DNA from: Molanna angustata
Taxonomy: Eukaryota > Arthropoda > Insecta > Trichoptera > Molannidae
DNA length: 64,000 nucleotides
Assembly (NCBI GenBank): GCA_963576475.1
Contig: OY754989.1
Span: 25,801,531-25,865,530, forward strand
Direction of reading: 5' to 3'
Part shown: positions 526 to 52,705 of the stretch, in pieces
Position numbering within the stretch: the first letter of the stretch is position 1
Layout: the number at the start of each line of letters is the position of its first letter
Notes under the pieces: generated by a model
The model's database searches: none
What the model was told of the DNA's origin: nothing
The model's input: the letters and a program-made list of their open reading frames with translations, nothing else
Program-made: the position numbers and the translations under genes

Positions 526-533
526 AAAACGCT
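526..533. repeat. Left target-site duplication of MULE-B (AAAACGCT)
   Basis: AAAACGCT directly precedes the TIR start ACGAGTGTCTCGGGAC. The same eight bases in the same orientation follow the reverse-complement TIR end at 23920. Eight to nine bases is the usual MULE duplication length. Confidence 0.75.
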
Positions 534-549
534 ACGAGTGTCTCGGGAC
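534..549 (+). repeat. MULE-B left TIR, outermost piece
   Basis: ACGAGTGTCTCGGGAC is the exact reverse complement of the last 16 bases before the right TSD at 23904-23919. The TIR is then interrupted by the 550-14708 block. Confidence 0.75.
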
Positions 550-1555
550 AAACCAATGGCTACCATAGAAAAAATACATTTCATTAAAATCCATAGATGT
601 CATAGCTAGATCCCTAGAAAGTGCACATACTTCAAAAGTTCTGACAGCCAGTGTGACAGCCAGTGAATGATAATACTAAAACATCGTTGATGTATGTATA
701 AATGTAGGTATTTCTATAATACGAGTTGTTTTTTTTTTTATTTTTTTTAATAAAAAAACTATTGTGTACATCAAACTTTTGTAAATAAATATAAATGAAG
801 TGTTTAAATATATTTTGAAAAGAATATTAGCCGTTTTACATAATCATTTATATTAAAATTATGTTGATCATGTAGGTTAATTACAATTTCAGTGATTTTA
901 TATCAAAAACTGTTTATTTTATTGAAATCAGACTTTCACCAATATTTTCTTCATTAACTTGATAATAGTATAGGCTATATAATATTATGAAAAATATCTT
1001 GAGGCAGCGCAAAAATAAGATCAGGTACGACGAACAGACCTTTCCTTGGGCAGCCCATTCCTTTCAATGGCATTTATATATGGAGGCCGCAACCTCCTCT
1101 TGACGCAAACATTTTCGTTTATCTATAAATTTAAATCGCTATAATATCATCTTAATACCTTGATGATATAATATAATTATAGTAAGACGGAAGTACCCAA
1201 CAACAGAGGCACGAAGAAGAATTATTATAGTAACATTGTAACTGGAAAACTTACAAGTAGTTTAATTAATTTATATTGAATTTTCAGTAGCGACTACTTT
1301 AAAATAATAAAGTTTTTGTCATAGAAAAATATAATATAGTGATTAAAATCTCTTTTCTATGATAGTGATCAATCAAATATAGCAAGAGATCAGAAATATG
1401 GATAAAGGGTGGAATATCCCAAATTGAAACATCAATTTACTGAATAACTTATTTTGAAAACTATCAGTTAGATATTTTACAATAAATTTATGTACACAAT
1501 AAATGTACAATGGGAGGTTTATTGCTTGTTGGCGATATCTTCCATCCAACCATAT
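550..1555 (+). repeat. Left arm of 1.0-kb inverted repeat
   Basis: About 1,006 bases are the near-perfect reverse complement of 13702-14708. The outer end reads AAACCAATGGCTACCATAG and the inner end GATGGTTGG-like sequence at 1546-1555. Differences seen by eye are single substitutions, poly-T length and a 6-bp local inversion near 1291. The inner part (about 1380-1555, minus strand) encodes the same Jockey-like LINE peptide as the other arm. The arm could be a very long MULE TIR or the product of an inverted duplication. Confidence 0.9.
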
Positions 1556-2526
1556 TCATTTGTTGAAGTAATTAATGTGTATGGTATGTAACCTGCTGCT
1601 TAAATGGATAAAAATGTTGTGAAGTAAGAAGTATTGTGCACTGCACTGGGATACTGAGTCTTTTGGTATCTGAATAAACAGACAATCCGTGTTCTGAGAA
1701 GTAAAATTGATTTTGAAGATAGATTGTTTATACATATTTACATTAAATTTACTTTGTTTAGTGTTTACACTTTTTATTTTGTGACAATTGTGGATGCACA
1801 GATACTGCCATATAAAATATACTTATAGCAAATTATTCTTTTTTTAAGAAAAAAATAAATAATTTGTTTCTAATGAAGAATATATTCACTTATGTTACTC
1901 AATCACACTTACATTACTGACTAATTTCTAATAGTTTTATTTCTAAATGTCTCATGGCATTAAAATCTTTATGTGATTAATATAATATAAAGATCACTAA
2001 CCTACATTTTTAAACCATTACCAACCTAGCTTGTGGTGAGCTCTTACAAAAATGGGGCTATATAAATTATCCAATTATTTATATAATTCAAAATATGTAC
2101 AAAATGTTTAACTAACTACCCAAAAATATATTTGCAAAATTTACATGAGGTAACGAAATGGACGAAAAATGTTTTATAATCAGCTCTAGGCTTATGTACT
2201 TTACACCTATGATATAAATTTGAAGTCGATCAGACTTATAGTTTGGGTTCTAGAGAGGACACAAAAAGGATACGCCGTACATATAAAAACATCTTGACGA
2301 AACTCAAACTGTATACTCTCTGTAGTTTCTGGCAAATCGCCGTGGAGGGGTCTGTATATGTACCTAACAACCGAAACGACACAAATTTGCGGTATGCGCA
2401 CCCTCTATTTTGGTTCTACTAGTTTGCCGGTGATTATACATGACACCCATTGAGAAATTGATGTAAAAAATATGCTTAAAAATTGTGAAATCATGACTCT
2501 CTACTATTCTATAGTCATCATTTGTC
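1556..2526. other. AT-rich sequence without recognised gene
   Basis: About 1 kb inside the left arm shows no convincing coding or repeat structure. Short frames near 2207-2588 have no family resemblance. Confidence 0.55.
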
Positions 2527-2890
2527 CTTTTCCTCATGACTGAGGATAGCGGCTGCAGTCCGTCGCCACACGTATGGCCCGCCTCCATGCCAATCTGTTT
2601 TGTGCTGAACGCAGAGCACCAGTCACCGAAGACCCCATTGTGGACTTAACCAAATCGCTCCATCTGGTCGGTGAGCGACCACGAGATCTCCGTCCCTCCA
2701 CGCTGCCCATCAAAACAAGCTTCTCGAGGCAGTCAGGTTCCCTTCTGGCAATGTGTTCAAATAATTGAAGGATACGTCTGTAGAAATACATAAAAAATAA
2801 ATACATCTTGATACGTCGATAGACGATCCTCGATCTTCAGCTCGTCTAGAATTGACACATTTGTTCTTCTGGCTGTAGTATAGTGATTCT
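2527..2890 (-). mobile_element. RTE-2 LINE, 3' end fragment
   Basis: The minus strand encodes the C-terminus of an RTE-clade ORF2: FEHIARREPDCLEKL, then GSVEGRRSRGRSPTRWSDL, ending near RVATDC. The same protein end is at 16141-16906, so this is one family. The 5' side is truncated near 2890. No catalytic domain is present. Confidence 0.8.
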
Positions 2891-2906
2891 ATAGCAGTGG
2901 AGAGTA

Positions 2907-3221
2907 AAAAACATTTCAATGAAAATGTAATTCTGTGGTGTATTAGCCAATGAATAAACAAAAGTTGAATCTCACTTTGTTTATTACAATAAATAAGACA
3001 ATTACAATAATTAATATATAAGTATACTATTTCAATAATTAGCATGAATAATATATTTTATCAAGTAGGTAAACAATCGACACAGTGTATCATATCGTTT
3101 GTGATAAAGCAATACCTCGTAACCCACTCACCAAAGATTTTACAGGAGAGACAAAAAACTTACATTTATACATTTTTGTGTTGTATTTTGTATAATTATG
3201 TTTTTTATATATTTGAAATAA
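2907..3221. other. AT-rich spacer
   Basis: Nothing recognisable lies between the RTE-2 fragment and the RTE-1 target duplication. Confidence 0.5.
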
Positions 3222-3231
3222 ATCTTTTAAT

Positions 3232-5185
3232 GTGAAAAGAAGAAAGCATGGATGGCATTAATAGCCGCGAAAGGATCGAATAATGAAGAAAGAGCAAAAG
3301 AAAATTATAAAGTATATAAAAAGGTAGTCAAAGACACAGTAAAAAAGGAAAAAGATGGTATAAAAGAGAAAGAAAGCCTGAAACGACTTTCCTGGAAACA
3401 TGAAAATGTTCTGGAAAGGCGTAGCGAAAAGAAAAAATGGAACTGTGAAAGCTTCGAAAGGAATAAATGATAAAGATGGAAAAATAATTATGGACGAAGA
3501 CGGCGTGAAAGAACGATGGAAAGAATATTTCAAGGAACTGTATGATAGCGGAGTAAGTGGGGACGTGAGTCAGAGAACATGGCAAGTAAGCGAAAGTGAT
3601 AAGGATGAAATAACGCGAGAAGTATTTGAAGCAGTAAAGTAAAACACGCGAAAGCGGGGAAAGCTGCCGGATATGACAGTGTATCAGCTGAACTTATAAA
3701 ATATGGCGGCGAACAGACGTTGGAGTGGTGTCTCTCTCTTTTCAACAAATGTTGGGAAGAAGGACACACTCCCTCAGACTGGAGAAATGCAGTCGTGGTA
3801 CCTTTGTATAAAGGTAAAGGATCGAAGCTCGACTGCAAAAACTATAGAGCCATAAGTTTATTAAGCTCAGTTGGTAAGATGTATGCAAGGATCCTGGATC
3901 AAAGAGTGCGAAAAATTACAGAAAGCAAGAGTGTCCAAGGTGCGTTTGTGGGCGGCAGAGGATGTATAGACCAAAATTTTTTTTCTGTACACGGTCACAG
4001 AAAAGGTCCTGGATAAAAATCAGAAAATTTTCTGTGCCTTCATAGACCTAGAAAAGGCGTATGATAAAGTTGTTAGAGAAAAATTATGGGATATACTAGC
4101 AGTGTATGGAGTGAAGAGCAAGCTGATACGCGCAATCGCGTCATTATATGAGAACAGCGAAGCATTTGTTCGTGTCAACGACACAGTGACAACGTGGTTC
4201 TCTATAAATAATGGCGTTAGACAAGGGTGCGTGCTATCTCCATGGCTCTTTAACTTGTACATTGATTTCTGCATAAGAGCCCTTAAGGATGAAAGCAAGG
4301 GTCTGAAATTGAGTACTGTAATGGTGCGAGATTTGATGTATGCAGACGATAAAGTTCTATTAGCAGAAAGTATGGAAGAGTTACAGTATCTTGTAAGTCA
4401 GGTATATGAAGGATGTATAGAGAATGGACTTAGGATGAATGCCAGCAAATCAAAGACAATGGTCTTTGAAAAGAGTGAAAGCAGAACAGCGTGTAAAATA
4501 AGAGTAGAGAACGAATGGCTCGAGCAAGTCGACGAATGTGTGTACTTGGGAAGCATATTTCAACGGAATGGACGACTCGATAAAGAGATCGAAAGAAGAG
4601 TTATGGCAGGAAACAGAGTGAATGGAGCACTAAGAACAATTATGAATGATCGCAACATATCAAAGGATGCCAAAGTTGCCATTCATAACGCCGTCGTAGT
4701 GCCAACCTTGACGTATGCAAGTGAAACCTGGACATGGCAGAAGACGCATGAAAGTAGAATAAATGCAGTTGAAATGAGATCGTTAAGAAGGATTTGTAAT
4801 AGAACGATGTATGACCGGGTAAGAAATGAGGACATAAGGAAAGAATGTAAGATGAAGAAAGATGTCATTACTAGAATGAAAGTGAACACATTGAGATGGT
4901 TTGGTCACATGGGGAGAATGAATGAGGAGCGCCTGACGAAGAAAATATACAGAGCGGAAAGGAATGGAATGAGAGGTCGGGGACGCCCAAGAAAGGGATG
5001 GCACGACCATGTGAACGAAATTTTGAAAGACGGAAATGTTAGAAGTGTGAGCAATAGACGAGCATGTATGAGACGATGCATGAATGTGGACGAAGCGAGG
5101 GATGCGTGCCAGGATAGAAAAATGTGGCGTTCGGTTCTCTCTGCCTACCCCGCAAGGGACATGGCGTGATGGTATGTATGTATGT
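3232..5185 (+). mobile_element. RTE-1 LINE, 5'-truncated copy with TSD
   Basis: The copy starts in the region between endonuclease and reverse transcriptase and ends in (TATG)n. It is flanked by the 10-bp duplication ATCTTTTAAT at 3222-3231 and 5186-5195, which fixes both ends. Length is about 1.95 kb; the endonuclease is missing. It is the longest RTE-1 copy here and the reference for the fragments at 87, 9930, 22995 and 32701. Confidence 0.88.
3388..5169 (+). pseudogene. RTE-1 ORF2 reverse transcriptase, broken
   Basis: The product copied element RNA into DNA at a nicked target. Seen in order: the pre-RT segment with KERWKEYFKELYD (about 3510), WRNAVVVPLYKGKG and NYRAISLLSSVGK (3780-3880), FIDLEKAYDKV (about 4040), NGVRQGCVLSPWLFNLYID (4208-4265), the catalytic YADD box (4338-4349, read as LMYADDKVLL), YLGSIFQRNGRLDKEI, and the RTE-type tail SETWTWQKTHESRINAVEM through RWFGHMGRM to the stop at 5169. 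Frames change near 3640 and near 4000, so it is inactive. The last 355 codons (4102-5169) are still open. Confidence 0.9.
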
Positions 5186-5195
5186 ATCTTTTAAT

Positions 5196-5813
5196 CATAG
5201 GGTATCTAAATTTATGTGAAATATAATATTTTTTTTATGTGGGATATTGGGTATTGCTTCCCCAAAAATAACAAAATAGTGGCTTACGAGTAATTACTTT
5301 TAACAAATTTATGGATTGAAAATCCTAGTGCTACAATAAAGTCACATGTTTTACAAGTAATATGTGCAATAATAATAAATTATTAATTCATTTAAAAAAA
5401 CAATAGAATCCATTACATATTGGCTATTTTCCTTTTGCACGTAGCTTTCTTTATCCAATCACAAAATTCACCTAATGATAATGTCGATAAAGACATAAAC
5501 TTGCACACTGGAACATTTTCTTTATCTACATTTAAATGATGGGCAAAAAATTCATGGCTGGATTTTTTTTGCTTGGAATTTTGTTTTTTTATAATATAGC
5601 ATATACAAAGTGAAATATAGAGAAAAAAAGATATATATGTAACTCAGAGAAGAAAACAATAAAAGACACATTATAGAAAAAATCTGTTTATTAACACTAG
5701 AGTACTCGGCCCTTCAAGTACTCCTTGAGTGCTCGCGCGGAGCACATGTGTCACCCATTACAATTAGCAATTTTTGATATTTTATTTAATGGAAATAAGA
5801 AAAACAAGTCCAT
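5196..5813. other. AT-rich spacer, no gene seen
   Basis: About 600 bases between the RTE-1 TSD and the Copia fragment. A slightly GC-richer patch at 5695-5755 is the only compositional change. It may be older element sequence. Confidence 0.5.
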
Positions 5814-6834
5814 GGTTTAAAAGATCTGAAAATGAATACTGCCTTTATGTAAAATCAACAGACAACGGTTACATATACTTACCAGTATTTGTTGACGATT
5901 TGTTGATATCAGGTACTGAAGAGGAAGAGGTGTCATATGTAAAAATAGTCTAAATAGTAATTTTAAAATTAAAGACCTTGGTCCTGCATGTAATTACTTG
6001 GGCATGACTATTCACCAAGATATGGTTAAGAACCAAATTAAGTTAAATCAAACTGCCTATCTCACAAACATATTAAGAAAATATAATATGCAAGATTGTA
6101 AATCTATGTCAACTCCGTTAGGTGCTAACTTTGATCATAGTAGCTTAAAAGGAAAATCTTCTGAGAGCCCAGAGTTAGAAAGTAATTGTAGAAGTTTAAT
6201 TGGTGCTCTCATGTATGCCATGTTATGCACAAGACTAGATCTCGGTATTTGTTTGAGTATACTAAGTCGCTATCAATCTTGTGCTAGCAAAGAACTATGG
6301 TCTGCCTTAAAAAGAGTCCTACGTTATATAAAGGGAACTGTAAATTTAAGTTTAGTGTTTGCATTAGACAATGAAAATATTATTGTGGGCTATGTAGACT
6401 CAGATTGGGCAGGATATAAAGTCGATCGTAAGTCAACTGCTGGCTATGTTTTCATAGTGCTAGGATGCACAGTTTCATGGATATCAAGAAAGCAAGCAGC
6501 GGTTGCCTTATCATCGACTGAAGCAGAATATGTAGTAATAAATTTAGCTGTAAGTGAAGCTTGTTGGTGGCAAAATTTGATTCATGATTTCAGAGTGTAT
6601 GATGAAAAGGTAAAAATAATAATTTTTGAAGATAATCAAAGTGCGATCAAGATATGCAAAAGTCCATCTCATCATACAAAGCTGAAACATTTAGATATTA
6701 AATTACATTTTGTAAAAAATAAAATTATTAATAATGGTATTAACATTGCGTATATTCCAATTAATGAACAAATAAGTGATATGTTAACTAAACCTCTTGC
6801 GAGAAAGATATTTGTGTACTCAGGGATGGATTAG
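5814..6834 (+). pseudogene. Ty1/Copia pol fragment: RT C-terminus and RNase H
   Basis: This is the end of a Copia polyprotein. Visible motifs are FVDDLLISG, the RT catalytic box (about 5887-5913), KDLGPACNYLGM (about 5974-6006), TPLG, a RLDLGICLS segment, VDSDWAGYKVDRKSTAGY, VALSSTEAEYV and EDNQSAI of RNase H, and HLDIKLHFVKNKI near the end. A one-base deletion near 5943 separates the YVDD part from the rest. Protease, integrase and gag are absent, so this is a 5'-truncated relic. Confidence 0.9.
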
Positions 6835-6911
6835 GATTAGAATGAAAACAACAATTTTTTTAATGTAAAAAAATATTTTTTTTAGACATGGTATTCATTG
6901 AAGAGGGGTAT

Positions 6912-7075
6912 TGTTAAAAAGTGGCAATGAACACTAGTTTAAAAAAATGTTTTAGCGTAGATAAACTGCTCCCTGTCTACTTATCTCTGTGTGCCTAACT
7001 CTGTTCAATTTTGTTCAATGGTGTAAGACATATGTAAAGTTACTGTAAAGGATTTCCACATAAATAAATACATAC
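6912..7075 (+). mobile_element. Probable start of the Copia 3' LTR
   Basis: A purine run GAAGAGGGGTAT just after the pol stop resembles a polypurine tract. The sequence then starts TGTTAAAAAGTGGC, typical of Copia LTRs. No second LTR is present, so the right limit is uncertain. Confidence 0.45.
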
Positions 7076-7124
7076 ATACAAGATTAAATATATATATAAT
7101 ATATAAATAAATTATGTATATAAA

Positions 7125-7280
<156 letters not shown>

Positions 7281-7385
7281 GTCTTTTAATATATATAAAT
7301 GATATTACAACAATTTTCATTGTAAATTTTTAACAGACGTTCATCTGCATCAGACTTCAACCAACTTTTCGTATACATTGATAAA

Positions 7386-7500
7386 ATGGCTGGGAAAGAT
7401 AACCACTCTACTGTAAATAGTTTCGAATGTGATGAATGTAGATGTCGATATAAACATGAAAAAAATTTAAACGCGCATAGAAGAAATATTCATGGTATAA
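7386..7500 (+). pseudogene. MULE-A exon a, first half: C2H2 finger
   Basis: From ATG the frame encodes FECDECRCRYKHEKNLNAHR and NIHG. This is a C-x2-C-x12-H-x4-H finger that would bind DNA, probably the element's ends. The exon breaks at GGTATAA, where the CR1-type LINE inserted. It resumes in frame at 9132 as TTACKINPVTKQ, so the uninterrupted exon is recoverable. Confidence 0.8.
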
Positions 7501-9124
7501 TAATAATAATAAGGACAATTTATAAAGCGCCGTTTAGTGACAACCGTGGTCACCTCAAGGGCACTTTCAGTTTGCAAAAAATAATTTAAAATTAGTCCTA
7601 TAGCTAACACATTGAAAATGGTGAAACATAAAACTTAAAAAAATACAATAAGTTAAAATTAAGTTAAAATTAGTCCTATAGCTAACACATTGAAAATGGT
7701 GAAATATAAAACTTAAAAAAATACCTAGAAATCGCAAATTAATCTTGTTACATAATCCAGATGAAATTAATTATAAAAAATAGTCGATTCAAAGTAAACT
7801 GGCATAATATTTAGTACACATAATATTATTGAACGGATGAAGGACAATCTGGATACGACTTGCGGAAAAGATGAGTTTTTAATTTCTTCTTGAATTCATT
7901 GATATTTTCGGCACATCTTATATCCATTGGAAGATTGTTCCATGACTTTGGTCCAGAAACGCCAAAAGATCGATATAGGTATTTTGGCTTATTTGTGAGA
8001 TTGGTTTCTACTAGTTTTTTATTGGATTGGGTCATTGATCTTAGCGTACTTTGTTTATTGTTAGGTGAAAATGGAACACAAAGTTCCGATATATATTCCG
8101 GGGCCATGCTATTGAGTGCTTTAAAGACAAGGAGACATGTTTTAAATTCTATACGTTCTGGGCTCTTCAGCCAATGAAGTTTGTGAAGTGTTGGTGAGAT
8201 ATGCGAGAAACGATCAATCTGGTAAATATAACGGGCTGCTGCATTGAGGATGAGTTGTATTCTATGGATTTGGTATTGCGGTAGGTGTGCTAATATGGCG
8301 TTACAATAATCTACATGGGAAACTATTAAAGAATTTATAAGGACCTTAGCAGCATTTGTCGAGAGACACCTTCGAATAGGTCTAAGTTGTCTGAGAAAGT
8401 AACAACTTTGTCTGACTATGGAAGAAATGTGTTTATCCATAGAGAGTGCACTGTCGATATGTATACCAAGAAATTTTACGCAGTTAGAAGGAGTAATTTC
8501 GACATTTTGAATTACAATGGGGTCATTATTTATGTATTGTTGCCTGCGAGGTGAGGCAAGCCAAAGGAACTTAGTTTTTGTTGGGTTCAGTTTTAGCTTG
8601 TTCTTACACATCCAGGTGGATATCTGATTTATGCATGTGGATACCTCGTGTGTTAAATGATATTTAAATTCAGGTGAACAGGACTTGAACAGTATGCGGT
8701 CATCTGCATAGGCATGTGTGTTGAAACCAAGATTTTGAACAAGATTTTCCAACTGATTGGTATATAAATTAAAGAGAATTGGTCCAAGTACAGAACCTTG
8801 TGGGACCCCGTACAAGGAGGTAATATTATTTGTGGTACTATCTTTAAATACAACTTTGTATTTACGGTCTACTAAGTAGGAAGATAGCCATGCAATGCAG
8901 TCATTACCCAAGCCAAATTCATGTCTAAGTTTAGAAAAGAGAATATTATGGTCTACAGTATCGAAAGCAGCGCTCATGTCTAAAAATGAAATTAGGGTAA
9001 TCTTACCTGATTCAGCTTGAATGATTAAGTCAGACAAAATTCTTACTGTGGCCGTTTCCGTAGAGTGGAATTTTCTATAGGCAGATTGATTTCTGGCCAG
9101 AAACTTATCAGAATCCAAGAAGTT
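7501..9124 (-). mobile_element. CR1-group LINE inserted in the MULE-A exon
   Basis: A 5'-truncated LINE on the minus strand is flanked by the 7-bp duplication GGTATAA (7494-7500 and 9125-9131). Its 3' end, toward 7501, has a short (TTA)n tail, common in CR1/L2-like elements. Its 3' UTR contains a direct repeat of about 60 bp (about 7590-7650 and 7665-7725). Confidence 0.85.
7826..9118 (-). CDS. CR1/L2-group LINE reverse transcriptase, C-terminal 430 residues
   Basis: The open frame starts inside the RT domain. Motifs: FLDMSAAFDTVDHNIL (catalytic Asp, about residue 48), YGVPQGSVLGPILFNLYTNQ (about 103-122), HAYADDRILF (catalytic ADD), NPTKTKFLW, KFLGIHID, then the CR1/L2-type tail with YRSFGVSGPKSWNNLP. 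The frame is open to its stop, but endonuclease and the first RT blocks are lost by 5' truncation, so the methionine at 9118 is not a real start. Jockey is less likely given the tail. Confidence 0.85.
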   Translation of the reverse strand: MDSDKFLARNQSAYRKFHSTETATVRILSDLIIQAESGKITLISFLDMSAAFDTVDHNILFSKLRHEFGLGNDCIAWLSSYLVDRKYKVVFKDSTTNNITSLYGVPQGSVLGPILFNLYTNQLENLVQNLGFNTHAYADDRILFKSCSPEFKYHLTHEVSTCINQISTWMCKNKLKLNPTKTKFLWLASPRRQQYINNDPIVIQNVEITPSNCVKFLGIHIDSALSMDKHISSIVRQSCYFLRQLRPIRRCLSTNAAKVLINSLIVSHVDYCNAILAHLPQYQIHRIQLILNAAARYIYQIDRFSHISPTLHKLHWLKSPERIEFKTCLLVFKALNSMAPEYISELCVPFSPNNKQSTLRSMTQSNKKLVETNLTNKPKYLYRSFGVSGPKSWNNLPMDIRCAENINEFKKKLKTHLFRKSYPDCPSSVQ

Positions 9125-9131
9125 GGTATAA

Positions 9132-9383
9132 CCACTGCTTGTAAAATAAATCCGGTTACTAAACAGGTAGAATGTAATCTTTGTAAATGTGTTTTTTCTA
9201 CTAAATCATCGTTATTAAAACACAGAAAAAACGTACATAATACATCCAAAACCCGCAATTGTAGAATAAAGTGCTCAGAATGTTCTAAACATTTAGTTTC
9301 CTATAAAAGGTTGAGAGAACATTTTGTAAAAGAACATGAAAAGGAATTTCATATTGAAAAACTGACATTGAAATGCAATGAAG
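9132..9383 (+). pseudogene. MULE-A exon a, second half: two more finger units
   Basis: In frame after the LINE, the sequence encodes VECNLCKCVFSTKSSLLKHR..VH, a good C2H2 finger, and CSECSKHLVSYKRLREHF..EH, a second. The exon ends at GAAG|GTAAAC at 9383, with a consensus donor. With the finger at 7386 the N-terminus had at least three fingers. Confidence 0.8.
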
Positions 9384-9493
9384 GTAAACTCAGACTTTAT
9401 TTATTATTTAAATTGATAATAGATTACATATTCTTAGAGAAATTGTAGCATTGAATGTATTTTTGATTACTTGACAAAATTGTTAATTTTTAG

Positions 9494-9814
9494 ATTTTCT
9501 AGAGTGGAAGGAAAACTATGAGAGGAAGAATTTTTATTCTTATGTGTTGGATACTTCTTCTAAGAAATGTACATCTAATACAGTCAAATATTACTATCAC
9601 TGCCATAGATCTAATTCTTATAAAGGGCGAGGAAGTAATCAACGATCTATAAAAAATATAGGAACAAACAAAATTGGAGCAGCTTGCCCATCTACAATTG
9701 AAGTGGTGGTTAAAGACGGCACATATTGTGTTACGTTATTTAGCACTCACATAGGACATGAAGCTGAAATTGGCAGAATAACTCTCCAAGCAAACGATAG
9801 AGCTAAACTTGCAG
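9494..9814 (+). pseudogene. MULE-A exon b: WRKY/GCM1-like zinc finger
   Basis: The exon follows a TTTTTAG acceptor and ends at GCAG|GTAATC. It encodes DFLEWKENYERKNF, then KYYYHCHRS, KIGAACPSTIEV and STHIGHE. The C-H...C...H-x-x-H pattern and position N-terminal to a MULE core fit the WRKY/GCM1-like fingers of MULE transposases. MULE-B has an alignable exon at 15947 (SCHRSGY, KKINAFCP). Confidence 0.72.
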
Positions 9815-9929
9815 GTAATCACCAGAATGCATCTTTTTGATAATGTATTCATTCCTTTATTTTTATCATTGTGCATCAATGAAAGTGGTTTAGGCATGAT
9901 GAGAGAATGATTGATAAAAGTGACTGTGG

Positions 9930-11575: not shown

Positions 11576-11681
11576 GGAGGGCTGACGTAGAATAATACAA
11601 GTTAATAACCTATTAATAAATCTATGTTGATGTAAAATGGTATAATTAACAAACACAAAAATAAATATAATTAAACTGTTT

Positions 11682-11837
11682 AAATTATAAATGAATTTGG
11701 TATGGTAAAATAAAAACCAAAGTTTTCAGTTCTACTACTTTAATGACACTGACTAGTTTCGGTCATACAGTGACCATTTTCAAGTAGAACTGAAAACTTT
11801 GGTATTTATTTTACCATACCAAATTCATTTATAATTT
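11682..11837. repeat. Penelope-type palindrome (54-bp arms)
   Basis: Arms 11682-11735 and 11784-11837 are reverse complements with one visible mismatch, around a 48-base loop. The loop reads ACTAGTTTCGGTCATACAGT and GACCATTTTCAAG. This resembles the terminal repeat sequence of arthropod Penelope-like elements (tracts of the type GACCGAAACTAGT). Read as a foldback fragment of a Penelope pseudo-LTR lying in the MULE-A intron. Confidence 0.7.
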
Positions 11838-11931
11838 GAAATGGAGTTCTACCAAGAATTGTCCGTAGAAAAGTTAAAAAAAGTAAACTGTTTAAGAAAA
11901 TTCTTGATTATTCTAATCATTTGATATTCAG

Positions 11932-13181: not shown

Positions 13182-13221
13182 TCTTGCAATATTCTGTAAT
13201 ACAATGAGTAACTTATTATTC

Positions 13222-13885: not shown

Positions 13886-14708
13886 TGATCACTATAATAT
13901 AAAAGAGATTTTAATCACTATATTATATTTTTCTATGACAAAAACTTTATTATTTTAAAGACTACGCTGCTGAAAATTCAATATAAATTAATTAAACTAC
14001 TTGTAAGTTTTCCAGTTACAATGTTACTATAATAATTCTTCTTCGTGCCTCTGTTGTTGGGTACTTCCGTCTTACTATAATTATATTATATCATCAAGGT
14101 ATTAAGATGATATTATAGCAATTTAAATTTATAGATAAACGAAAATGTTTGCGTCAAGAGGAGGTTGCGGCCTCCATATATAAATGCCATTGAAAGGAAT
14201 GGGCTGCCCAAGGAAAGGTCTGTTCGTCGTACCTGATCTTATTTTTGCGCTGCCTCAAGATATATTTTCATAATATTATATAGCCTATACTATTATCAAG
14301 TTAATGAAGAAAATATTGGTGAAAGTCTGATTTCAATAAAATAAACAGTTTTTGATATAAAATCACTGAAATTGTAATTAACCTACATGATCAACATAAT
14401 TTTAATATAAATGATTATGTAAAACGGCTAATATTCTTTTCAAAATATATTTAAACACTTCATTTATATTTATTTACAAAAGTTTGATGTACACAATAGT
14501 TTTTTTATTAAAAAAAAATAAACAAAAAACAACTCGTATTATAGAAATACTTACATTTATACATACATCAACGATGTTTTAGTATTATCATTCACTGGCT
14601 GTCACACTGGCTGTCAGAACTTTTGAAGTATATGCACTTTCTAGGGATCTAGCTATGACATCTATGGATTTTAAAGAAATGTATTTTTTCTATGGTAGCC
14701 ATTGGTTT
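13702..14708 (-). repeat. Right arm of 1.0-kb inverted repeat
   Basis: Reverse complement of 550-1555. The inner end starts at ATATGGTTGGATGG and the outer end is CTATGGTAGCCATTGGTTT. It is followed by TTAC and then ACAAGCGTCTTTAGC, which belongs to the MULE-B TIR. High identity means the duplication, or a later gene conversion, is much younger than the decayed gene between the arms. Confidence 0.9.
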
Positions 14709-14732
14709 TACACAAGCGTCTTTAGCACAAAT

Positions 14733-15330
14733 TAGTGGTGCAAAGTTCGATATTTTTGTAAGATCCTGTCTTTTAAAATCGATTCATGAAATTTATGCGG
14801 ATCATCAATTCGCTCTTCGATTCAATATGATTCAAATATAGCTACCCTTATCTATCGTACATAACATGTACGTAGAATGACAGAGAAAACAAAACCGATT
14901 CAAAATATGATATGCAAATGTAGGCGTTAAAATGTTTGCATTTCAATGTACTTAATGGTCAATATTGCTTAAATATTTTATGAACCATAATGAATTAGTC
15001 GTGAATCGAAGATCGCCTTCAAAATAGTATATTCAATTATAGACGTTACGTATTTGTTTTTCAAAGTATATTGCGGTCAAAATTGCTTAACATATTTAAG
15101 AACCGCAATGAATTAGATTTTATGAACCATAATGAATTAGTTGTGAATCGATGATTGCCATGAGTCGGTATGTGTATCGCATTCTAACGATATATTTTAT
15201 ATGAGATAGAAAGTGTGAGAGTGATGTCTGGTTCATGAGCGGATCGTTGTGGCAACGTGAACCGTGAGTCACCGATTCAATTTAATGATCCGGTCAAATA
15301 ATACGGATCACTCATTTTTCCCCGTCGCTA
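14733..15330. mobile_element. hAT-like MITE in the MULE-B left TIR
   Basis: A 598-bp insertion with no coding capacity. It is flanked by the 8-bp duplication GCACAAAT (14725-14732 and 15331-15338). Termini are TAGTGGTG at the left and CGTCGCTA at the right (TAGCGACG as reverse complement), fitting short hAT ends of the TAGNGNNG type. Removing it restores the MULE-B TIR seen uninterrupted at 23820-23919. Inside are two or three direct repeats of TATGAACCATAATGAATTAG (about 14980, 15105, 15120). Confidence 0.72.
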
Positions 15331-15338
15331 GCACAAAT

Positions 15339-15391
15339 AACCCATCCGTGCGAAAATGGCGGCTTTGTTGTCAAATTTGACGTCTCTCATA
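15339..15391 (+). repeat. MULE-B left TIR, innermost piece
   Basis: AACCCATCCGTGCGAAAATG and the following TCAAATTTGACGTCT match the reverse complement of 23820-23872 with a few changes. This is the inner half of the TIR. Confidence 0.75.
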
Positions 15392-15585
15392 AAACCTAAA
15401 GAACCTAGCGTATACCAGAGTATTTGGTATACCTTCATTCTTCATAACCTAGCGCCGACTTTTTCCCATATTTTTTGTTTAGGTTTGTTTATAATAATTG
15501 AGAATAATATATCTTTTTATAATATATACCTTTGTGTTTTAATTCAAAATCATAGCATCCCAATCTGTAGAAATTTTCCTGATTA

Positions 15586-15830
15586 ATGGCAATGAGAATC
15601 CTATTTTATTTCCTAAATTATTACAAAAAAAATTTCAGTGTGATATTTGTAATACAGAATTCAATCACAAACATAACATGAATAGACATAAAAGAATCAA
15701 ACATGGTTTGAAATTAAAAAATAATTCAGATGATTCGAAGATATTTAAATGTTCGTTGTGTCCTTTAAAATTTTCCACAAAATTATCTCTAGGAAATCAT
15801 AATCGAAGAAAGCATAGATTTAAAAAATGA
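15586..15830 (+). pseudogene. MULE-B zinc-finger exon remnant
   Basis: The frame encodes FQCDICNTEFNHKHNMNRHK with IKH, and FKCSLCPLKFSTKLSLGNHN with RKH: two C2H2 fingers ending at TGA (15828-15830). The order and sequence resemble MULE-A exon a. No start codon was fixed. Confidence 0.7.
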
Positions 15831-15946
15831 ATATGTTCTAAACTGTAAATTTTGCTCATTTTCGGCTTCAAAAAAGATTTTGAAAAAAAATTTCTAACAA
15901 ACCATAATATAAATAAATTAAAAACCAAACTATTAGTTTTAATTCC

Positions 15947-16138
15947 ATGAATGAATTTAAAAGTTGGAAAGATAATTTAGAATTAGAAACAAGGAGTAAA
16001 TTTATTTATAAAGCATCCATGTCTTATGATAATATAAAAACTACGTATTTTTCTTGTCATCGTAGTGGTTATTTTGTTTCAAAAGGAGAAGGTTTTCACC
16101 ATATTAAAAGCCAAGGATCCAAAAAGATTAATGCATTC
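15947..16138 (+). pseudogene. MULE-B WRKY/GCM1-like finger exon remnant
   Basis: The frame gives FKSWKDNLELETRSKFIY, TTYFSCHRSGYF, and GSKKINAFCP. It aligns over its length with MULE-A exon b, with clear divergence, so it is a second MULE gene and not a recent copy. It stops where the RTE-2 LINE begins at 16141. The catalytic core and SWIM part of MULE-B were not found. Confidence 0.72.
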
Positions 16139-16140
16139 TG

Positions 16141-16906
16141 TCCTCATGACTGAGGAAAACTGCTGCAGTCCATCGCTACACGTATGGCCCGCCTCCATGT
16201 CAATCTGTTTTGGGCTGGACGCAGAGCACCAGTTACCGAAGACCCCATTGTAGACTTAACCAGATCGCTCCATTTGGTCGGTGAGCGACCACGAGATCTT
16301 CGTCCCTCCACGCTGCCCATCACAACAAGCTTCTCGAGGCAGTCCGGTTCCCTTCTGGCAATGTGTCCAAAGAATTGAAGGATATGTCTGTAACATATTG
16401 TCAACAGACGATCCTCAAACTTCAGCTCATCCAGAATTGACACATTCGTTCTTCTGGCTGTCCACGGTTGCATGGGTCCAGCACCACATTTCGAAGGCAT
16501 CGATCCTCTTTCGCTCTGACTCCCTCTGCGTCCATGTTTCCACACCATACAGGTACATCGAGAATATCAGAGCCCTGATGAGTCTAGCCTTCGTGTTTTT
16601 TGTGACGGTCCTGTCCTTCCACACTCTTATGAGATTTCCCAGTACTCTCTTTGCCAAGGCGATGCGTCTTCTCACTTCCACGTCACAACCACCGGTGTCA
16701 CATATGTTGGAACCTAGATATGTGAAGTCATGTACTATTTCAAGATGTTTTAGAGAAGTTATTGGGGGAAGTTTACATGTTCTATCAAACACCATCACCA
16801 GTTTGGTTTTGCATTGATTTATGCTCAGACTGAGTGATAAGACTTTCTCTCTCAACACAATCCAAGAGCTGTTTCATATCTGTCTCGTTCGTGGCTACAC
16901 GGATAT
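16141..16906 (-). mobile_element. RTE-2 LINE, 5'-truncated
   Basis: On the minus strand from about 16906: IRVATNETDMKQLLD, then FTYLGSNICDTGGCDVEVRR, RIALAKRVLGNL, YLYGVETWT, then (after a frameshift near 16480) RRTNVSILDELKFEDRLL, HILQFFGHIARREPDCLE and GSVEGRRSRGRSPTKWSDL to the end near 16141. This is the post-RT C-terminal region of an RTE-clade ORF2. RT and endonuclease are missing. Same family as 2527-2890. Confidence 0.82.
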
Positions 16907-17719
16907 AACATACAAAAAATGTTGTCAACAAGAACAAAATAGACTTTGCAAGATATAATTAAACCAAATTCTTGTGAAAAGACAAATCTAAAGAAGGGTC
17001 GCCGGACAATTATTCTTTATGACCTTTCCTAATATTTTTTATCAAAAAAATATCCCCTTTAACTAATCATCTCATATTGTGTATCGCTAATGAGCCGTCT
17101 AACACATTGTATGTAAAAAAGCTTATCTCATTTTACTTTGCGCTTTGTTATCTTGCTACTTTTGTTTTCAAGTAAAATATATACCATATGTTAACAGTTA
17201 CAAATTAGCTCTCTTTTCATGCTTTCAACTCATTCACTGTGTAAAACGTGTTTTGACCGTTTTTTAAGTAATAACCAGTACATACATAATACATAAATCC
17301 TGAACCTGAATATATGATCATATTTTGTTTGATATTTAATTGTGTATTTATTAATTTGACTTTAATGTACTGTAAATTCACTATGTCATATGATAAATAA
17401 ATAAATACATAAGTATATAATTTTGGTTGAAATTAATTTTGATTTCATTGATAATTAAATATTTGTTCTTGAATACATTATTGTATGTTTTATAAGGGAC
17501 GGCCGGAGAAGGATTCTGGAGGAGGCCAGGGCCCACACAGGGCTGTAGCGCCAATGATGATGATGTTTTATAAGTAGACCTCTAAGCATATCCTAAATAC
17601 TTACCTATTTGTACCTAACTCTGATATTATAACGAGTAATGGTTATAACAAGCAAATTTAGTTTGTCCTTTTGTGCTCGCTATAACCAAGTCTGACTGAA
17701 TTTATTTTTAACTTCTTTA
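16907..17719. other. AT-rich region with a tiny RTE-like tail
   Basis: Mostly featureless. The patch 17497-17570 reads GGACGGCCGGAGAAGGATTC, then GGAGGAGGCCAGGGCCC and (ATG)n. It resembles the 3' end of RTE-type LINEs (LEEARAHTGL-like peptide) and is probably a very short 5'-truncated insertion. Confidence 0.45.
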
Positions 17720-18130
17720 TACTTGTAACATTTAGTACTTAATTGTATTATAACTTTAAAATTCTAAATGGTGAAAGGATTTTCTATTTCTAATATATGC
17801 TTCTGTTTATTTATGGGTTATTGGAATTATTTGTAACAATTTGTACTTAACTATATTATGACTGCAATTTTTCAAATTGTGATAAGACTGTGTATTTTGA
17901 AAATAAGAATATTTTATTTATAAGCCATTGATATTATTTCTAACATTTTGTACTTAACTGTATTATGATTGTAAATTTCTAAATGGTGAAATGATTTTTT
18001 ATTTCTAGTATATGCTTGTGTTTATTTGACGGGTTATTGGAATTATTTGTAACAATTTTTACTTAACTGTATTATGACTGTATTTTCCAAATGGTGACTG
18101 GACTATTGAAAATATGTATGCGTTTATTTA
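17720..18130 (+). repeat. AT-rich ~120-bp tandem repeat, left block
   Basis: Three to four diverged copies contain GGGTTATTGGAATTATTTGT, then TGTACTTAACTGTATTATGA and TTTCCAAATGGTGA. Period is roughly 110-130 bp. The same unit resumes at 19575-19880, so a LINE split the array. Confidence 0.72.
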
Positions 18131-18164
18131 ACTTTAATTTTTGAAATTTTAATTAAAATATGTA

Positions 18165-18342
18165 AGCATTAGGATCATGCTGAAAATCAGCTGCAGGGGG
18201 CTTGTCCTCCTGCAACATAGCTGAGCATGGTCCTTTTGAGTTGGAGAGGTTGTTTTAATTTATTTTTATTTTATTGTTTATATCTTGTATTTGTATGTAA
18301 CTTCTTCTGCTCAATAAATGTATTATTATTATTATTATTAAC
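18165..18342 (+). mobile_element. Possible LINE 3' UTR ending in (ATT)n
   Basis: A stretch with AGCTGAGCATGGTCCTTTTG and AATAAATG followed by (ATT)n at about 18320-18342. It looks like the 3' end of a non-LTR element; no coding part precedes it. Family not recognised. Confidence 0.35.
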
Positions 18343-18344
18343 TG

Positions 18345-19565
18345 GTAGCAGCAAAATTAAGAGCCCTCATCTATACATAATATGTATTATGGCAAAAGCG
18401 CTCAAAGTAGAATGGAAACCTAATCTCAAAATCCTGAAGAACCATTAGGTAAGGTTGGAGTTCAGAGAAAAAGTGAATCTATCACTTCAAGAAATAAAAG
18501 AGAACACTCCAATTAATGAAATATGGGAGGAACCTCAGAAAATCTATTGGGAACAGTACAGCCAAACAGAAGATTAGGCCTGGTTGACGAGGAGTGTGAA
18601 ATAGTAACTAGGCAGAAAAATGACGCCTATTTCCGAATGCAGCAAAGAAAAACCAGGAGTAGGAGAAACAGAGGGCTACAAAGATAAAAGAAAGGCAGGA
18701 AAACAATTACGATGTCAATGAAAGTAGAAAATTCTAAAGAGCTGTTAACCTACTAAGAAAATATTTCAGTGAGAATCACAGAAGCAAAAACAGGTATATA
18801 CTCATCAACAGTGAGGATATTATTCTGAAGCGTTGGGTCGAGTACTAAGTACTCGAGTACGAGTAGATAATGAGATCAATTATATGTATAAAGAATTAAA
18901 CATCTCCAGGGCATGATGACATACCAGCAGAACTGTTCAAGTATGGTGGTAGTAAAGTTATCTCAATTCTGCATGAAATTATCACCTAAATTTGGGAATT
19001 TGAAGTAATGCTAAAAGATTGGGAGACTGGCTTGATCTGTTCACTACATAAAAAGAGAGAAGCATTGAACTGTATTAACTACAGAGGCACACACTTTTAA
19101 GCACAGCATATAAGAGTTTTGTTTATGCGCGACTCCTACACTTCGTGGAACATGTCGTCAGGCAATATCAAAGCTGGTTTGGTCAGGCAGATCACTTAAA
19201 AGGAAGACAATATGTTATTGGTGTTTGAAACAACTATATTAAGGAAAAATTTTGGCCCAAATAATGATGGTGGGGCTTGAAGAATACGGTATCATCATAA
19301 ACTAGAGGAAATGGATAATTTAGTCTAATTTATAAAAAATTCAGCACCTACGTTGGCTGGATAGATGATGACCGTTCTCCAAAAAAGGAATTAGACACCT
19401 GTCCTGAAGGGAGAAGTAGAGGCAGACCTAGGTTAAGATGACTGGACGATGTGGTGTGCGATATAAGAGAAATGGTCCTGATAAATTGGAGAAGACTGGC
19501 AGTCGATAGGGAGGGATGGAGACGACTTCTGGAGGCCAAAGTCCATAGCGGACTATAGCACCGGT
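18345..19565 (+). pseudogene. RTE-3 LINE relic, heavily decayed
   Basis: Coding traces in several frames: RKVNLSLQEIKENTPINEIW-like linker (about 18465), SPGHDDIPAELFKYGG (about 18905), LKDWETGLICSLHKK (19012-19056), NCINYRGTH, and near the end GRSRGRPRLR, WLDDV-like and NWRRLAVDR (about 19410-19510), finishing in a T-rich tract at 19570. This is an RTE-clade ORF2 with many stops, distinct from RTE-1 and RTE-2. It interrupts the ~120-bp satellite. Confidence 0.65.
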
Positions 19566-19574
19566 TATGTATTT

Positions 19575-19925
19575 TTTTTTTTGGTTATTGGAATTATTTT
19601 TAACTGTAATTTTCCAAATGGTGACAGTGATTTCTATTTTGAATATGTCTATGTTAATTTTATGGGTTTTTGGAATTATTTGTCACCATGTTATGACTAT
19701 AATTTTCCAAATGGTAATAGTGCTTTTTATTTAGTATAATATGTTGTTATAATAATTTAATGGTTCATTGGAATTATTTGTAATATTTTGTAACTGTATT
19801 ATTATGACTGTAATTTTTCAATTGATGCCAGTTCTATAATACTAATACAGTATAAGTATGATGTTTATTTTTTATTGAAATTATTTGTATAGTTATTGAA
19901 ATTATTTGTATAGTCTTTTTTGAAA
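19575..19925 (+). repeat. AT-rich ~120-bp tandem repeat, right block
   Basis: Three further copies of the unit seen at 17720-18130 (GGAATTATTTGT, TTTCCAAATGGTGA). Confidence 0.7.
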
Positions 19926-20077
19926 CATTAAAAAGAAAATAAGAAAGGTATGTATAGATTGAAATAAATATTGTTTTATTTAATACCTACTAATAAAGAG
20001 CGCATTCCCTTTATATTATAAAATTTGTGTCCCATGAAATGCAAGAAATACTGTAGGTATTAATGCATACTTACCAT

Positions 20078-20336
20078 ACATCCAATTTTTTTATTTTATT
20101 TTACTTCTCGGGCAACTAACAGGTACTATGTCAAATATTAATTAATCAAAATTAAATATTAATAATTAAGACACGCACCCAAAAACAAGTAGCCACATTC
20201 TGGAGACTTACAATATTTATCGTCTCACAGATCCAGACTGAAAACACAATTAAAAACTGTGTCTCCACCGGGAATCGAACCCTGGACCTTTGGATCAGCA
20301 GTCAGATATCTAACCAACTGAGCCACGAAGGCCAGA
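20078..20336 (-). mobile_element. tRNA-derived SINE-1, copy 1
   Basis: On the minus strand the element starts GGCCTTCGTGGCTCAGTTGG (box A) and contains a box-B-like GGTTCGATTCC about 50 bases on, then a unique body and a T-rich/AAAT-type tail at 20078-20105. It would be transcribed by RNA polymerase III and mobilised by a LINE. A second copy is at 38438-38636. The acceptor stem does not close, so it is not a working tRNA gene. Confidence 0.8.
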
Positions 20337-20439
20337 CGACATTTTTATTTATTAACTAGTGAACACCCGGCAAACTTCGTATCGCCTGTATAATTAAAAA
20401 TTGTCCCCCATAACCACCCGTCGCTTCAGACTCTTCAAT

Positions 20440-21280
20440 ACCTCCCATCCCTTCAGTACCTTCCGTCCCTTCAGTACCTCCCGTCCCTTCAGTACCTCCC
20501 GTCCCTTCGGTCACTCCCGTCCCTTCGGTCACTCCCGTCCCTTCGGTCACTCCCGTCCCTTCGGTCACTCCCGTCCCTTCGGTCACTCCCGTCCCTTCGG
20601 TCACTCCCGTCCCTTCGGTCACTCCCGTCCCTTCGGTCACTCCCGTCCCTTCGGTCACTCCCGTCCCTTCGGTCACTCCCGTCCCTTCGGTCACTCCCGT
20701 CCCTTCGGTCACTCCCGTCCCTTCGGTCACTCCCGTCCCTTCGGTCACTCCCGTCCCTTCGGTCACTCCCGTCCCTTCGGTCACTCCCGTCCCTTCGGTC
20801 ACTCCCGTCCCTTCGGTCACTCCCGTCCCTTCGGTCACTCCCGTCCCTTCGGTCACTCCCGTCCCTTCGGTCACTCCCGTCCCTTCGGTCACTCCCGTCC
20901 CTTCGGTCACTCCCGTCCCTTCGGTCACTCCCGTCCCTTCGGTCACTCCCGTCCCTTCGGTCACTCCCGTCCCTTCGGTCACTCCCGTCCCTTCGGTCAC
21001 TCCCGTCCCTTCGGTCACTCCCGTCCCTTCGGTCACTCCCGTCCCTTCGGTCACTCCCGTCCCTTCGGTCACTCCCGTCCCTTCGGTCACTCCCGTCCCT
21101 TCGGTTACTCCCGTCCCTTCGGATGCTTCCAGGCCCTTCCGTCCCTTCAGGCCCTTTCGTCTCTTAAGGCCCTTCCGTCCCTTCAGGCCCTTCCGTCCTT
21201 TCAGGCCCTTCCGTCCCTTCAGGCCCTTCCGTCCCTTCAGGCCCTTCAGTACGTCCCATCCCTTCATAACCTTCCGTCCC
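20440..21280. repeat. 18-bp minisatellite, about 34 core copies
   Basis: The unit is CACTCCCGTCCCTTCGGT, repeated almost without change from about 20505 to 21110, with degenerate related units (CCCTTCAGTACCTCC, CCCTTCAGGCCCTTC) at both edges. Because 18 is divisible by three, both strands stay open (GHSRPF on plus, TEGTGV on minus). That is no evidence for a gene. Confidence 0.95.
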
Positions 21281-21289
21281 TTCAGTAGG

Positions 21290-22140
21290 TTAAGAAAAGT
21301 TTAATTCCCGAAACAATCCTGGGATAATTGGACCTTCTTTATCCAGGATTTTCCAACTTCATAGGTAAAATGACCAAATACACGATAAAAAAGAAGAAGT
21401 AAAAAAATGTTTAGGTCCAGAAACTGTCCTGGAAGACCTGCGATGTGATGAAAGTACAGTTGGACCTTCTTTTTCCAGGATTCTTCAACATCATAGGTAA
21501 AATGACTAAAAACACATTAAAGAAGAAGAAGAAGAAAAAAGTGTGAATCCAGAAACCGTCCTGGAAGACCTGCAAAGAGATGGAAGGACAGTTAAAGCTT
21601 CTTCTCCCAGAGTATTAGGTCATTTTATCTTCATAGGTAAAATGACCTAATACCCGATGAAGAAGAAGAAGAAGAAGAAAAGTTTTTCAATCCAGAAACC
21701 ATCCCGGTCATACGCTCAACAATTCACCAAAATTTAATTGCAATAGGATGAACGGTTCCCAGGATAGTCCACCTTCATCGGTAAAATGACCTAATACCCG
21801 ATGAAGAAGAAGAAGAAGATTTTTTTTTTAATCCAGAAACTATCCCAGTCTTACACTCGACAATTCATCAATGTTTCATTGCAATCGGATGAACGGTTCT
21901 CAGGATAGTCCACCTTCATAGGTAAAAAGACCTGATTCCCGATGAAGAAGAAGAAGAAGAAAATATTTTAAATTCAGAAATTATCCCGGGCATACGTTCG
22001 ACAATTCACCAAAGTTTAATTGCAATCGGATGAACGGTTCCCAGGATAGTCCACCTTCATAGGTAAAATGACCTAAAACTCGATGAAGAAGAAGAAGAAG
22101 TTAAAATTTTTTGATCCAGAAACCATCCCTGGTATACTCT
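21290..22140. repeat. ~150-170-bp tandem units with (GAA)n
   Basis: About five to six units, each with a CCAGAAAC-CATCCCGG-like start, GGATAGTCCACCTTCATAGG, TAAAATGACCTAATACCCGA and a (GAA)4-5 block. The GAA runs differ in length between units. Confidence 0.85.
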
Positions 22141-22257
22141 CGACAGTTCACCAAAGTTTCATCGCAATCGGATGAGCGGTTTAGGAGCGCATTCAACACA
22201 TACATAGATACATACATAGATACATACAAACATTCAAATTTATAATATATGTAGATT

Positions 22258-22689
22258 ACAATTTCACTTTTTTGTACATATATATAGATATACACCTCTT
22301 TCTAAGGGTTACAAAAAGTAAATGGTAAGTGGTCAATAAAAGTATTTTATTATACATACCTATGTTGTATAGAAAACAAAATATCTTAAAATATTCAATA
22401 ATTTGTATTTATGGGTTTATAGTTTGGTACATGTTCTTCAACTATACATACTATCGTTATCGATCTCATGAGTTACATGCGACTAGTTTATGTATAAAAT
22501 ACCTAAACCAAATACTGGGGCATTTTCTAACATTTCAATCTGGCATATTGTTATGAATCCACATTGACTGGTATACATACATACATAAAATTAATAGTTC
22601 AAAGTATCAAAAGCAACACTTTTGTATATAATTGAAACAAAATAAATTTCTCTGATTCAATAATTCATGTGATAAGATCAGACAGTATT
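22258..22689. other. AT-rich spacer
   Basis: No gene or repeat recognised. Confidence 0.5.
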
Positions 22690-22880
22690 CTCATAACGAG
22701 ATGGCAGAGTGGTTAGCGCGCTGGGCTAGTAATCCAGTGGTCGCGAGTTTGAATTCTGCCTCAACCGATTTCGTTCACCTATAGCACAAGCATTTATTTG
22801 CTTATTTTAGGGAACGTAGGAAGATGTATATGTACTTGTTTAACAAGGACATATTCATTTTTTATAAAAAAAAAAAACTG
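22690..22880 (+). mobile_element. tRNA-derived SINE-2, copy 1
   Basis: GATGGCAGAGTGGTTAGCGC (box-A region), a CTGGG-loop-TCCAG anticodon-type hairpin, and GGTCGCGAGTTTGAATTC (box B) form a tRNA-like head. A body (ACCGATTTCGTTCACCTATA) and an A-rich tail near 22865 follow. The second copy is at 32860-33020. No closing acceptor stem, so a SINE and not a tRNA gene. Confidence 0.8.
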
Positions 22881-22994
22881 TAGTTTCAAAATCTACATAG
22901 ACTTTGCCTCTTCCTATACCTTGTTTGCATAGTTTGTTTTATCTATATTTATTTTTCAGATCGCATTTCAATTGTAAGCTTATTTAAATATATA

Positions 22995-23395
22995 CTTACC
23001 ATCACGCCATGTCCCTCGCGGGTAGGCACAGAGAAACGAACGCCACATTTTTCTATCCTGGCACGCATCCCTCGCCTCGTTCACAAACATGCATCATCTC
23101 ATGCATGTTTGTCTGTTGCTCGCACTTCTAACATTTCCGTCTTTCAGAATATCGTTCACATGGTCGTGCCATCCCTTTCTTGGGCGTACCCGTCCTCTCA
23201 TTCCATTCCTGTCCGCAAAACATATTTTCTATGTCAGGAGTTCCTCATTCATTCTCCTCATGTGGCCAAACTATCTCAATGTGTTTACTTTCATTCTATT
23301 AATGACATTTATTCTTCATCTTACATTTTTTTTTCTTATGTCCTAATTTCTTACCCTGTCATACATCGTTCTATTACAGACTTTTCTTAACGATA
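22995..23395 (-). mobile_element. RTE-1 LINE 3' fragment
   Basis: The minus strand carries the RTE-1 C-terminal coding region with frameshifts, then the conserved tail (complement of ACCATCACGCCATGTCCCTC at 22999-23018). The 5' side is truncated near 23395, in the part corresponding to the RRICNRTMYDRV region of the 3232 copy. Confidence 0.8.
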
Positions 23396-23819
23396 AAACT
23401 TAATCAAATACTACCAGAGATACTCCATTTACTATATTTTTTAAATCATGTTATACTTTTATTTGTAGTATATCAATATTTGGAAAAATAAAAGCACTTT
23501 ATTTCGTCATAAACAATTTTGTAATTACCTACTATATATTTTGTAAATTATATAAAACCTCGTCAAACCAGACCGATCTTCTGTGTAATGCTATATTTTG
23601 TAAATTATGTATAATAGAGATCACAATAAAATAGTAGTTGTACATTGATCTTTTCAAAACAATGGTTTAGGTTATGTTGTACATAAACCTTTAACTTAAA
23701 TATAAAACATTACTTATACCTTAACCTCACATCTTAAATAAATACATTGATTAATAAACACATATTAGTGCATTTCCAATAAATATTTTGATCATATTTT
23801 ACGAGAATTTACTTGTTTA
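23396..23819. other. AT-rich inner flank of MULE-B right TIR
   Basis: No coding signal seen. Confidence 0.5.
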
Positions 23820-23919
23820 ATGATAGATGTCAAATTTGACAGCTAAGCCGCCATTTTCGCACGGATGGGTTATTTGTGCTAAAGACGCTTGTTTGGTTTT
23901 ACTGTCCCGAGACACTCGT
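23820..23919 (-). repeat. MULE-B right TIR, uninterrupted
   Basis: Read on the minus strand: ACGAGTGTCTCGGGAC, AGTAAAACCAAAC, AAGCGTCTTTAGCACAAAT, AACCCATCCGTGCGAAAATG, then TCAAATTTGACATCT. It acts as the reference for the broken left TIR. Confidence 0.78.
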
Positions 23920-23927
23920 AAAACGCT
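23920..23927. repeat. Right target-site duplication of MULE-B
   Basis: AAAACGCT, identical to 526-533. Confidence 0.75.
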
Positions 23928-44811: not shown

Positions 44812-44813
44812 AC

Positions 44814-52700: not shown

Positions 52701-52705
52701 AGACC

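Follow-up and report, generated by a model that had tools for sequence, protein, structure and literature searches.

Nested Mutator-like elements in Molanna angustata and a recurrent insertion site in the terminal inverted repeat of one of them

Introduction

Mutator-like elements (MULEs) with target site duplications (TSDs) of 8-10 bp and long terminal inverted repeats (TIRs) are known from animals, as described in excerpts of four papers (PMC13359780, PMC6446971, PMC5225508, PMC3169594). Here we describe two such families, MULE-A and MULE-B, nested one in the other within a 64,000-nucleotide stretch of the genome of Molanna angustata (Trichoptera; assembly GCA_963576475.1, contig OY754989.1, positions 25,801,531 to 25,865,530, forward strand), which we call the window. 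The Spectre clade, in the excerpt of its description (PMC6446971), consists of arthropod MULEs with a C2H2 zinc finger and an 8-bp TSD, and Dendroctonus ponderosae is among its listed hosts. Its TIRs are 74-76 bp long there, whereas those of MULE-A are ~1 kb, and the TSD of MULE-B is 9-10 bp. MULE-A has the 8-bp TSD with C2H2 matches below the Pfam cut-offs, and MULE-B has a C2H2 match above the cut-off together with its 9-10-bp TSD. An arthropod MULE survey (PMC13359780), as excerpted, likewise reports TIRs of 13-1193 bp and catalytic DDE and zinc-finger domains, but its full lengths of 1.4-10.0 kb are smaller than the 14.2 kb of MULE-A, which carries retroelement fragments.

Nested MULEs as such are ordinary. 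Plant MULEs with multiple tandem TIRs (excerpt of PMC3310237) resemble our locus in having additional TIR sequence beside the outer TIR, and an outer TSD; in contrast to the two families and the clean inner TSD seen here, their internal TIR lacks a TSD, and the TIRs resemble one another for 100 bp or more. Recurrent, non-random MULE targets are described in the excerpts on SaTar MULE arrays (PMC5907723) and MuTAnT (PMC4486113), where the target is a microsatellite and not one site in the TIR of another MULE. Among the leading literature matches, judged from their listings, no description of one MULE repeatedly hitting the TIR of a second surfaced.

Results

Three insertions are present between window positions 526 and 23927. 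Their duplications measure 8, 10 and 8 bp, and each site also occurs uninterrupted elsewhere in the genome, except that no empty site is available for the outermost duplication, AAAACGCT. We are highly confident that MULE-A came first, MULE-B second at 17 bp from its right tip and a miniature inverted-repeat transposable element (MITE) last, and that the site in the MULE-A TIR is a recurrent target. The 14.2-kb, Mutator-like MULE-A inserted with duplication of AAAACGCT (526-533 and 23920-23927). MULE-B, of another Mutator-like family, then duplicated TTGGTTTTAC of the MULE-A TIR (14702-14711 and 23893-23902) and split the right TIR into 13702-14711 and 23903-23919, before the hAT-like MITE entered the left TIR of MULE-B, duplicating GCACAAAT (14725-14732 and 15331-15338). 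Each element presumably integrated by ordinary cut-and-paste, through a transposase from its own superfamily.

The preliminary description of this region had arrived at another order. It took 23820-23919 for one intact 100-bp TIR of MULE-B, whose left partner, with 534-549 as its tip, was cut in three by a later 14.2-kb block and by the MITE. When aligned, the reverse complement of 23820-23919 did match 534-550 (17/17), 14712-14732 (21/21) and 15339-15390 (48/52), but its bases 18-27, GTAAAACCAA, were missing from the spliced left partner. GTAAAACCAA has just two occurrences in the window, each in reverse complement: 14702-14711 and 23893-23902. The outermost stretch matches beyond chance: the 16-mer at 534-549 has a single further match in the window at ≤3 mismatches (0.03 in all in shuffles), and the chance of the AAAACGCT pair at its given place is ~2e-5 from base composition.

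The outer AAAACGCT duplication and the three-piece match are what an outer MULE-B, with the block inserted into its left TIR, would leave. The stretch at one block end shares no direct repeat of ≥6 bp with that at the other, however, and the fit of a direct-duplication model was equalled with random ends in 38 of 60 nulls. MULE-B copies in the genome end at base 28 of the supposed TIR, and we regard an outer MULE-B as extremely improbable. Equally hard to credit is an end-to-end fusion of MULE-A and MULE-B through a common terminal sequence, or an inversion of a 10-bp MULE-A duplication by template switching. For the window alone, the inverted-duplication model fits in 4 edits, a result reached by none of 60 nulls and by 6 among 1500, but the family ends make it needless, as MULE-B directly duplicated this 10-mer of the MULE-A TIR. 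Gap filling of the Pack-TIR type (cf. the excerpt of PMC8277862) was also considered for the block and dropped.

Family ends were read from one assembly of 995 Mb in 131 contigs. In the fetched copies, MULE-B starts with ACAAGCG directly abutting the target duplication. The MULE-B family ends at ACAAGCGTCTTTAGC, with 57 exact ends in the genome, 5' and 3' together, found as ACAAGCGTCTTTAGCACAAATAACCCATCC (0 for the reversed control). Adding the left end in the window, invisible to the pattern because of the MITE, gives 58 ends in 36 rows, namely 22 pairs and 14 single ends; the counts cover copies with at least one exact end. Perfect 9-10-bp duplications abut the MULE-B end in 19 of the 22 paired copies, the window included, the other three being two copies at C11 and the copy at C24. 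All 57 ends are uninterrupted at the site of the MITE.

The MULE-A family end ACGAGTGTCTCGGGACAGTAAAACCAATGG has 149 exact ends in the genome, none of them holding MULE-B (control 0). In the comparison of MULE-A ends, 40 of 169 candidates were scored, and the 39 loci fetched cover 41 matches besides that of the window. The 17-bp tip was in the expected place at 35 of the 39, with one extra A at L080 and the tip present twice at L069. Of the other four, L081 has one mismatch, two MULE-A ends meet at L083 and also at L093 (with a single whole tip there), and in L091 another repeat interrupts the TIR at base 18. Further 8-bp MULE-A duplications were read by eye at four other loci (GTATTTTC, ACACATAC, TGATTAAC and TCAAAAAC).

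Because the genome copies give the true family ends, the outer element is MULE-A (534-14711 plus 23903-23919), with 534-550 and 23903-23919 as its two tips, and GTAAAACCAA in the supposed TIR is explained as the target duplication of MULE-B. The apparent 100-bp TIR is a chimera of 73 bp of MULE-B TIR, the MULE-B duplication and 17 bp of MULE-A. There is no left TIR in three pieces: the MITE makes the single break in the left TIR of MULE-B, and MULE-B the single break in the right TIR of MULE-A. For both families, the genome contained copies with other TIR limits or TSDs than those first proposed, an outcome that the preliminary description had itself named as refuting it. The nesting of Mutator-like elements, the 8-bp outer TSD at both limits, and the later entry of the MITE into a TIR all held up.

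Within MULE-A, the left TIR (534-1555, + strand, ~1 kb) is missing the GTAA that follows base 17 in the family end, and the interior (1556-13701, + strand) contains fragments of a long interspersed nuclear element (LINE) and of Copia. The inner part of the right TIR (13702-14711, - strand) ends in the 10 bp that double as the left copy of the MULE-B TSD, and its outermost 17 bp (23903-23919, - strand) are separated from the remainder by MULE-B. The two arms differ by 13 substitutions and 3 gap positions over 1005 aligned bases, from 550 inwards. MULE-B (14712-23892, + strand) is 9,181 bp long including the MITE, with bases 1-21 of its left TIR at 14712-14732 and bases 22-73 at 15339-15390 (both + strand), and a 73-bp right TIR at 23820-23892 (- strand). 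The whole of 534-23919 adds up to 14,178 + 9,181 + 10 + 17 = 23,386 bp. The MITE is an exact 598-bp insertion at 14733-15330 with termini TAGTGGTG...CGTCGCTA and GCACAAAT on each side; we take it to be hAT-like from the hAT TIR consensus, alongside the 8-bp duplication.

Of the 35 loci where one or both MULE-B ends are exact, six have MULE-B at the same site of the MULE-A TIR (C25, which is the window, C5, C27, C19, C24 and C11, the two copies at C11 being taken as one). The outer flanks of MULE-A differ among the six. The MULE-B 3' end faces the MULE-A tip at C25, C5, C24 and C11 (at C11 by the order of ends read), whereas C27 and C19 present the 5' end to it; MULE-B lengths range from 6,286 to 12,890 bp. 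Over their first 800 nt the six copies are 84.0-99.5% identical and form three groups, namely the window with C24, C5 with C11 and C19, and C27 (C21, which aligned at 57-60%, was set aside). Since orientation and subfamily differ, the six sequences probably represent at least four independent insertions. A BLAST comparison of 56 MULE-B flanks, all but that of the window, with MULE-A returned the other five loci, a junction at C3 and two further matches of 13-14 bp. At C3, MULE-B straddles the outer boundary of MULE-A with the duplication CAAAAACAC, and at C24 the flank toward the MULE-A tip is rearranged, with the tip within 94 bp.

For independent insertions at uniform sites, the chance of six at that base would be P ~4e-35 with 169 MULE-A ends and 1e-28 with 2000, and the chance of two 2e-11 with 169. 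The hotspot might nevertheless be merely apparent, if one MULE-A with MULE-B in its TIR had multiplied and carried MULE-B along. The window and C24 copies of MULE-B belong to the same subfamily, have the same orientation and show 99.3% identity in their first 800 nt, and so do C5 and C11, at 98.7%; MULE-A is also abundant, with many ends 99-100% identical. Such joint spread could account for pairs of loci, but not for all six, given two orientations, 9- and 10-bp duplications, lengths of 6.3-12.9 kb and three groups, and we consider it quite improbable as the whole explanation. The tip of MULE-A looks like an insertion hotspot for MULE-B. The 15 MULE-B duplications away from the MULE-A TIR site (including that at the C3 edge) tend towards T or A at position 2 and A at position 3, counted from either edge. 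GTAAAACCAA fits this weak motif, which alone occurs too often to account for six loci out of 35.

At three loci one MULE-A end adjoins another, within or close to TIR bases 17-27: L069 (C19:23862297), L093 (C6:9650134/9650310) and L083 (C14:1158588/1158749). At L069 and L093, where one junction was read at each, this looks like a MULE-A inserted at bases 17-24 of another (AGTAAAAC), which suggests that MULE-A also inserts into its own tip. A repeat end, CACTGCCTTCTACAAATAAC or its reverse complement, adjoins the MULE-A TIR cut at base 18 at L091 and the outer MULE-A tip at L086. At C11:27972144-27993576 (L051/L052/L109), two MULE-B copies stand head to tail, 5 bp apart, each 10,714 bp long and identical over the first 800 nt. 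Among the places listed, at least 15 pairs of MULE-A ends span 14,028-14,752 bp, so MULE-A seems to have multiplied as such with the retroelement fragments inside.

We assigned both families to the Mutator-like elements from their coding remnants and ends. The MULE-A transposase remnant (11925-13178, + strand) has SDD..AFYNAW and SWIM-like motifs and a single in-frame TAA at 12285. Its 297 residues from 12288 to 13178, which include the SWIM-like motif, found 44 homologues at E ≤1e-3, several of them with precomputed PF10551/PF21056, and 11937-13178 matched these homologues with E down to 2e-104. The best-scoring named ones are from Trichonephila spiders, and Dendroctonus ponderosae and aphids are also among them. 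Pfam gave no MULE match on the MULE-A fragments, and all its C2H2 matches there were below the cut-offs, including that of the C2H2-like zinc-finger and N-terminal-domain pieces, which lie in different frames at 9029-9837 (+ strand). With a MULE-type transposase and TIRs whose TSD falls within 8-11 bp, the 14.2-kb block is itself a Mutator-like element, broken by the TAA and by the LINE and Copia fragments.

For MULE-B, the corresponding zinc-finger and N-terminal-domain pieces in the window (15543-16150, + strand) are 33% identical to those of MULE-A over 72 amino acids. Full-length copies do encode a MULE transposase: seven of them (C10, C3, C2b, C19, C1b, C5 and C11) match the homologues of the MULE-A transposase at 33-40% identity (E ~1e-85 to 1e-95), just inside the 5' end. 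Neither the MULE-B of the window nor the short copies C27 and C1a match these MULE transposase proteins; the window's copy has therefore lost its transposase part, and the assignment of MULE-B is carried by the family for the transposase and by the 9-10-bp duplications of 19 of the 22 pairs, which fall within 8-11 bp. Protein-database searches with the N-terminal pieces of MULE-A and of MULE-B gave nothing at E ≤1e-3, and solved structures gave just three matches (E 0.076-0.91). In pattern searches for relatives, none was confirmed among 122 stretches from viral contigs and 590 from genome contigs. Two of three scans of viral contigs gave no match, and the sole match of the third, an IMG/VR contig, was taken as chance because its flanks do not continue like the TIR; the genome-contig scan matched in one metagenome-assembled genome of Planctomycetaceae.

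Repeats lie at 17702-22181 in MULE-B, between the gene remnant and the right TIR. They comprise 107-bp repeats and, at 20413-22181, an 18-bp minisatellite and 132/141-bp arrays; several other MULE-B copies have longer arrays matching the 107-bp repeats. Outside the nest, two LINE reading frames lie within 24969-32653 (- strand), of which 24969-28592 encodes an endonuclease and RNase H besides reverse transcriptase, and 30422-32653 reverse transcriptase alone. Two long terminal repeat retrotransposons (44260-52701 and 54452-61571), with flanking repeats 96% and 99.5% identical, both have reverse transcriptase, RNase H and integrase or integrase zinc-binding domains, and we take them to be Gypsy-like.

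Discussion

Several observations weigh against placing MULE-A first and against a recurrent target. The left TIR of MULE-A in the window is 4 bp short of the family (GTAA), within the same hotspot, which may be an excision scar. The TIRs of MULE-B differ at 4 of 71 aligned bases against 13 of 1005 in MULE-A (Fisher P = 0.02), and TIR divergence read as a clock would make MULE-B the older. The MULE-B copy at C1 (L039) has the same four differences between its 5' and 3' TIRs, and other copies have distinct 5' and 3' types; we therefore take the difference as inherited and no clock. A clean duplication is present at just four of the six insertions into the MULE-A TIR, those at C24 and C11 being without one, and some pairs of MULE-A and MULE-B could have spread together. 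The 14 single ends among the 36 MULE-B rows are uninformative on duplication, the counts rest on copies that retain an exact end, and with one genome searched an orthologous empty site was unavailable.

Candidate causes of the hotspot are a DNA structure formed by the 1-kb inverted repeats of MULE-A, open chromatin at its tips, and bound MULE-A transposase. MULE-B may prefer the site 18-27 bp inside MULE-A tips, perhaps exposed by MULE-A transposase or by the inverted-repeat structure, and gain a ride as cargo. MULE-A could move MULE-B in this way because it keeps both tips and its TSD; as a whole we hold this proposal only tentatively and think it rather unlikely.

The insertion order at this locus is corrected, and a chimeric tip of this kind may pass for an intact TIR if one window is read alone. 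With 149 intact MULE-A ends and six occupied ones, recurrence at one site in the TIR of another transposon offers a tractable case of MULE target choice in an animal genome.

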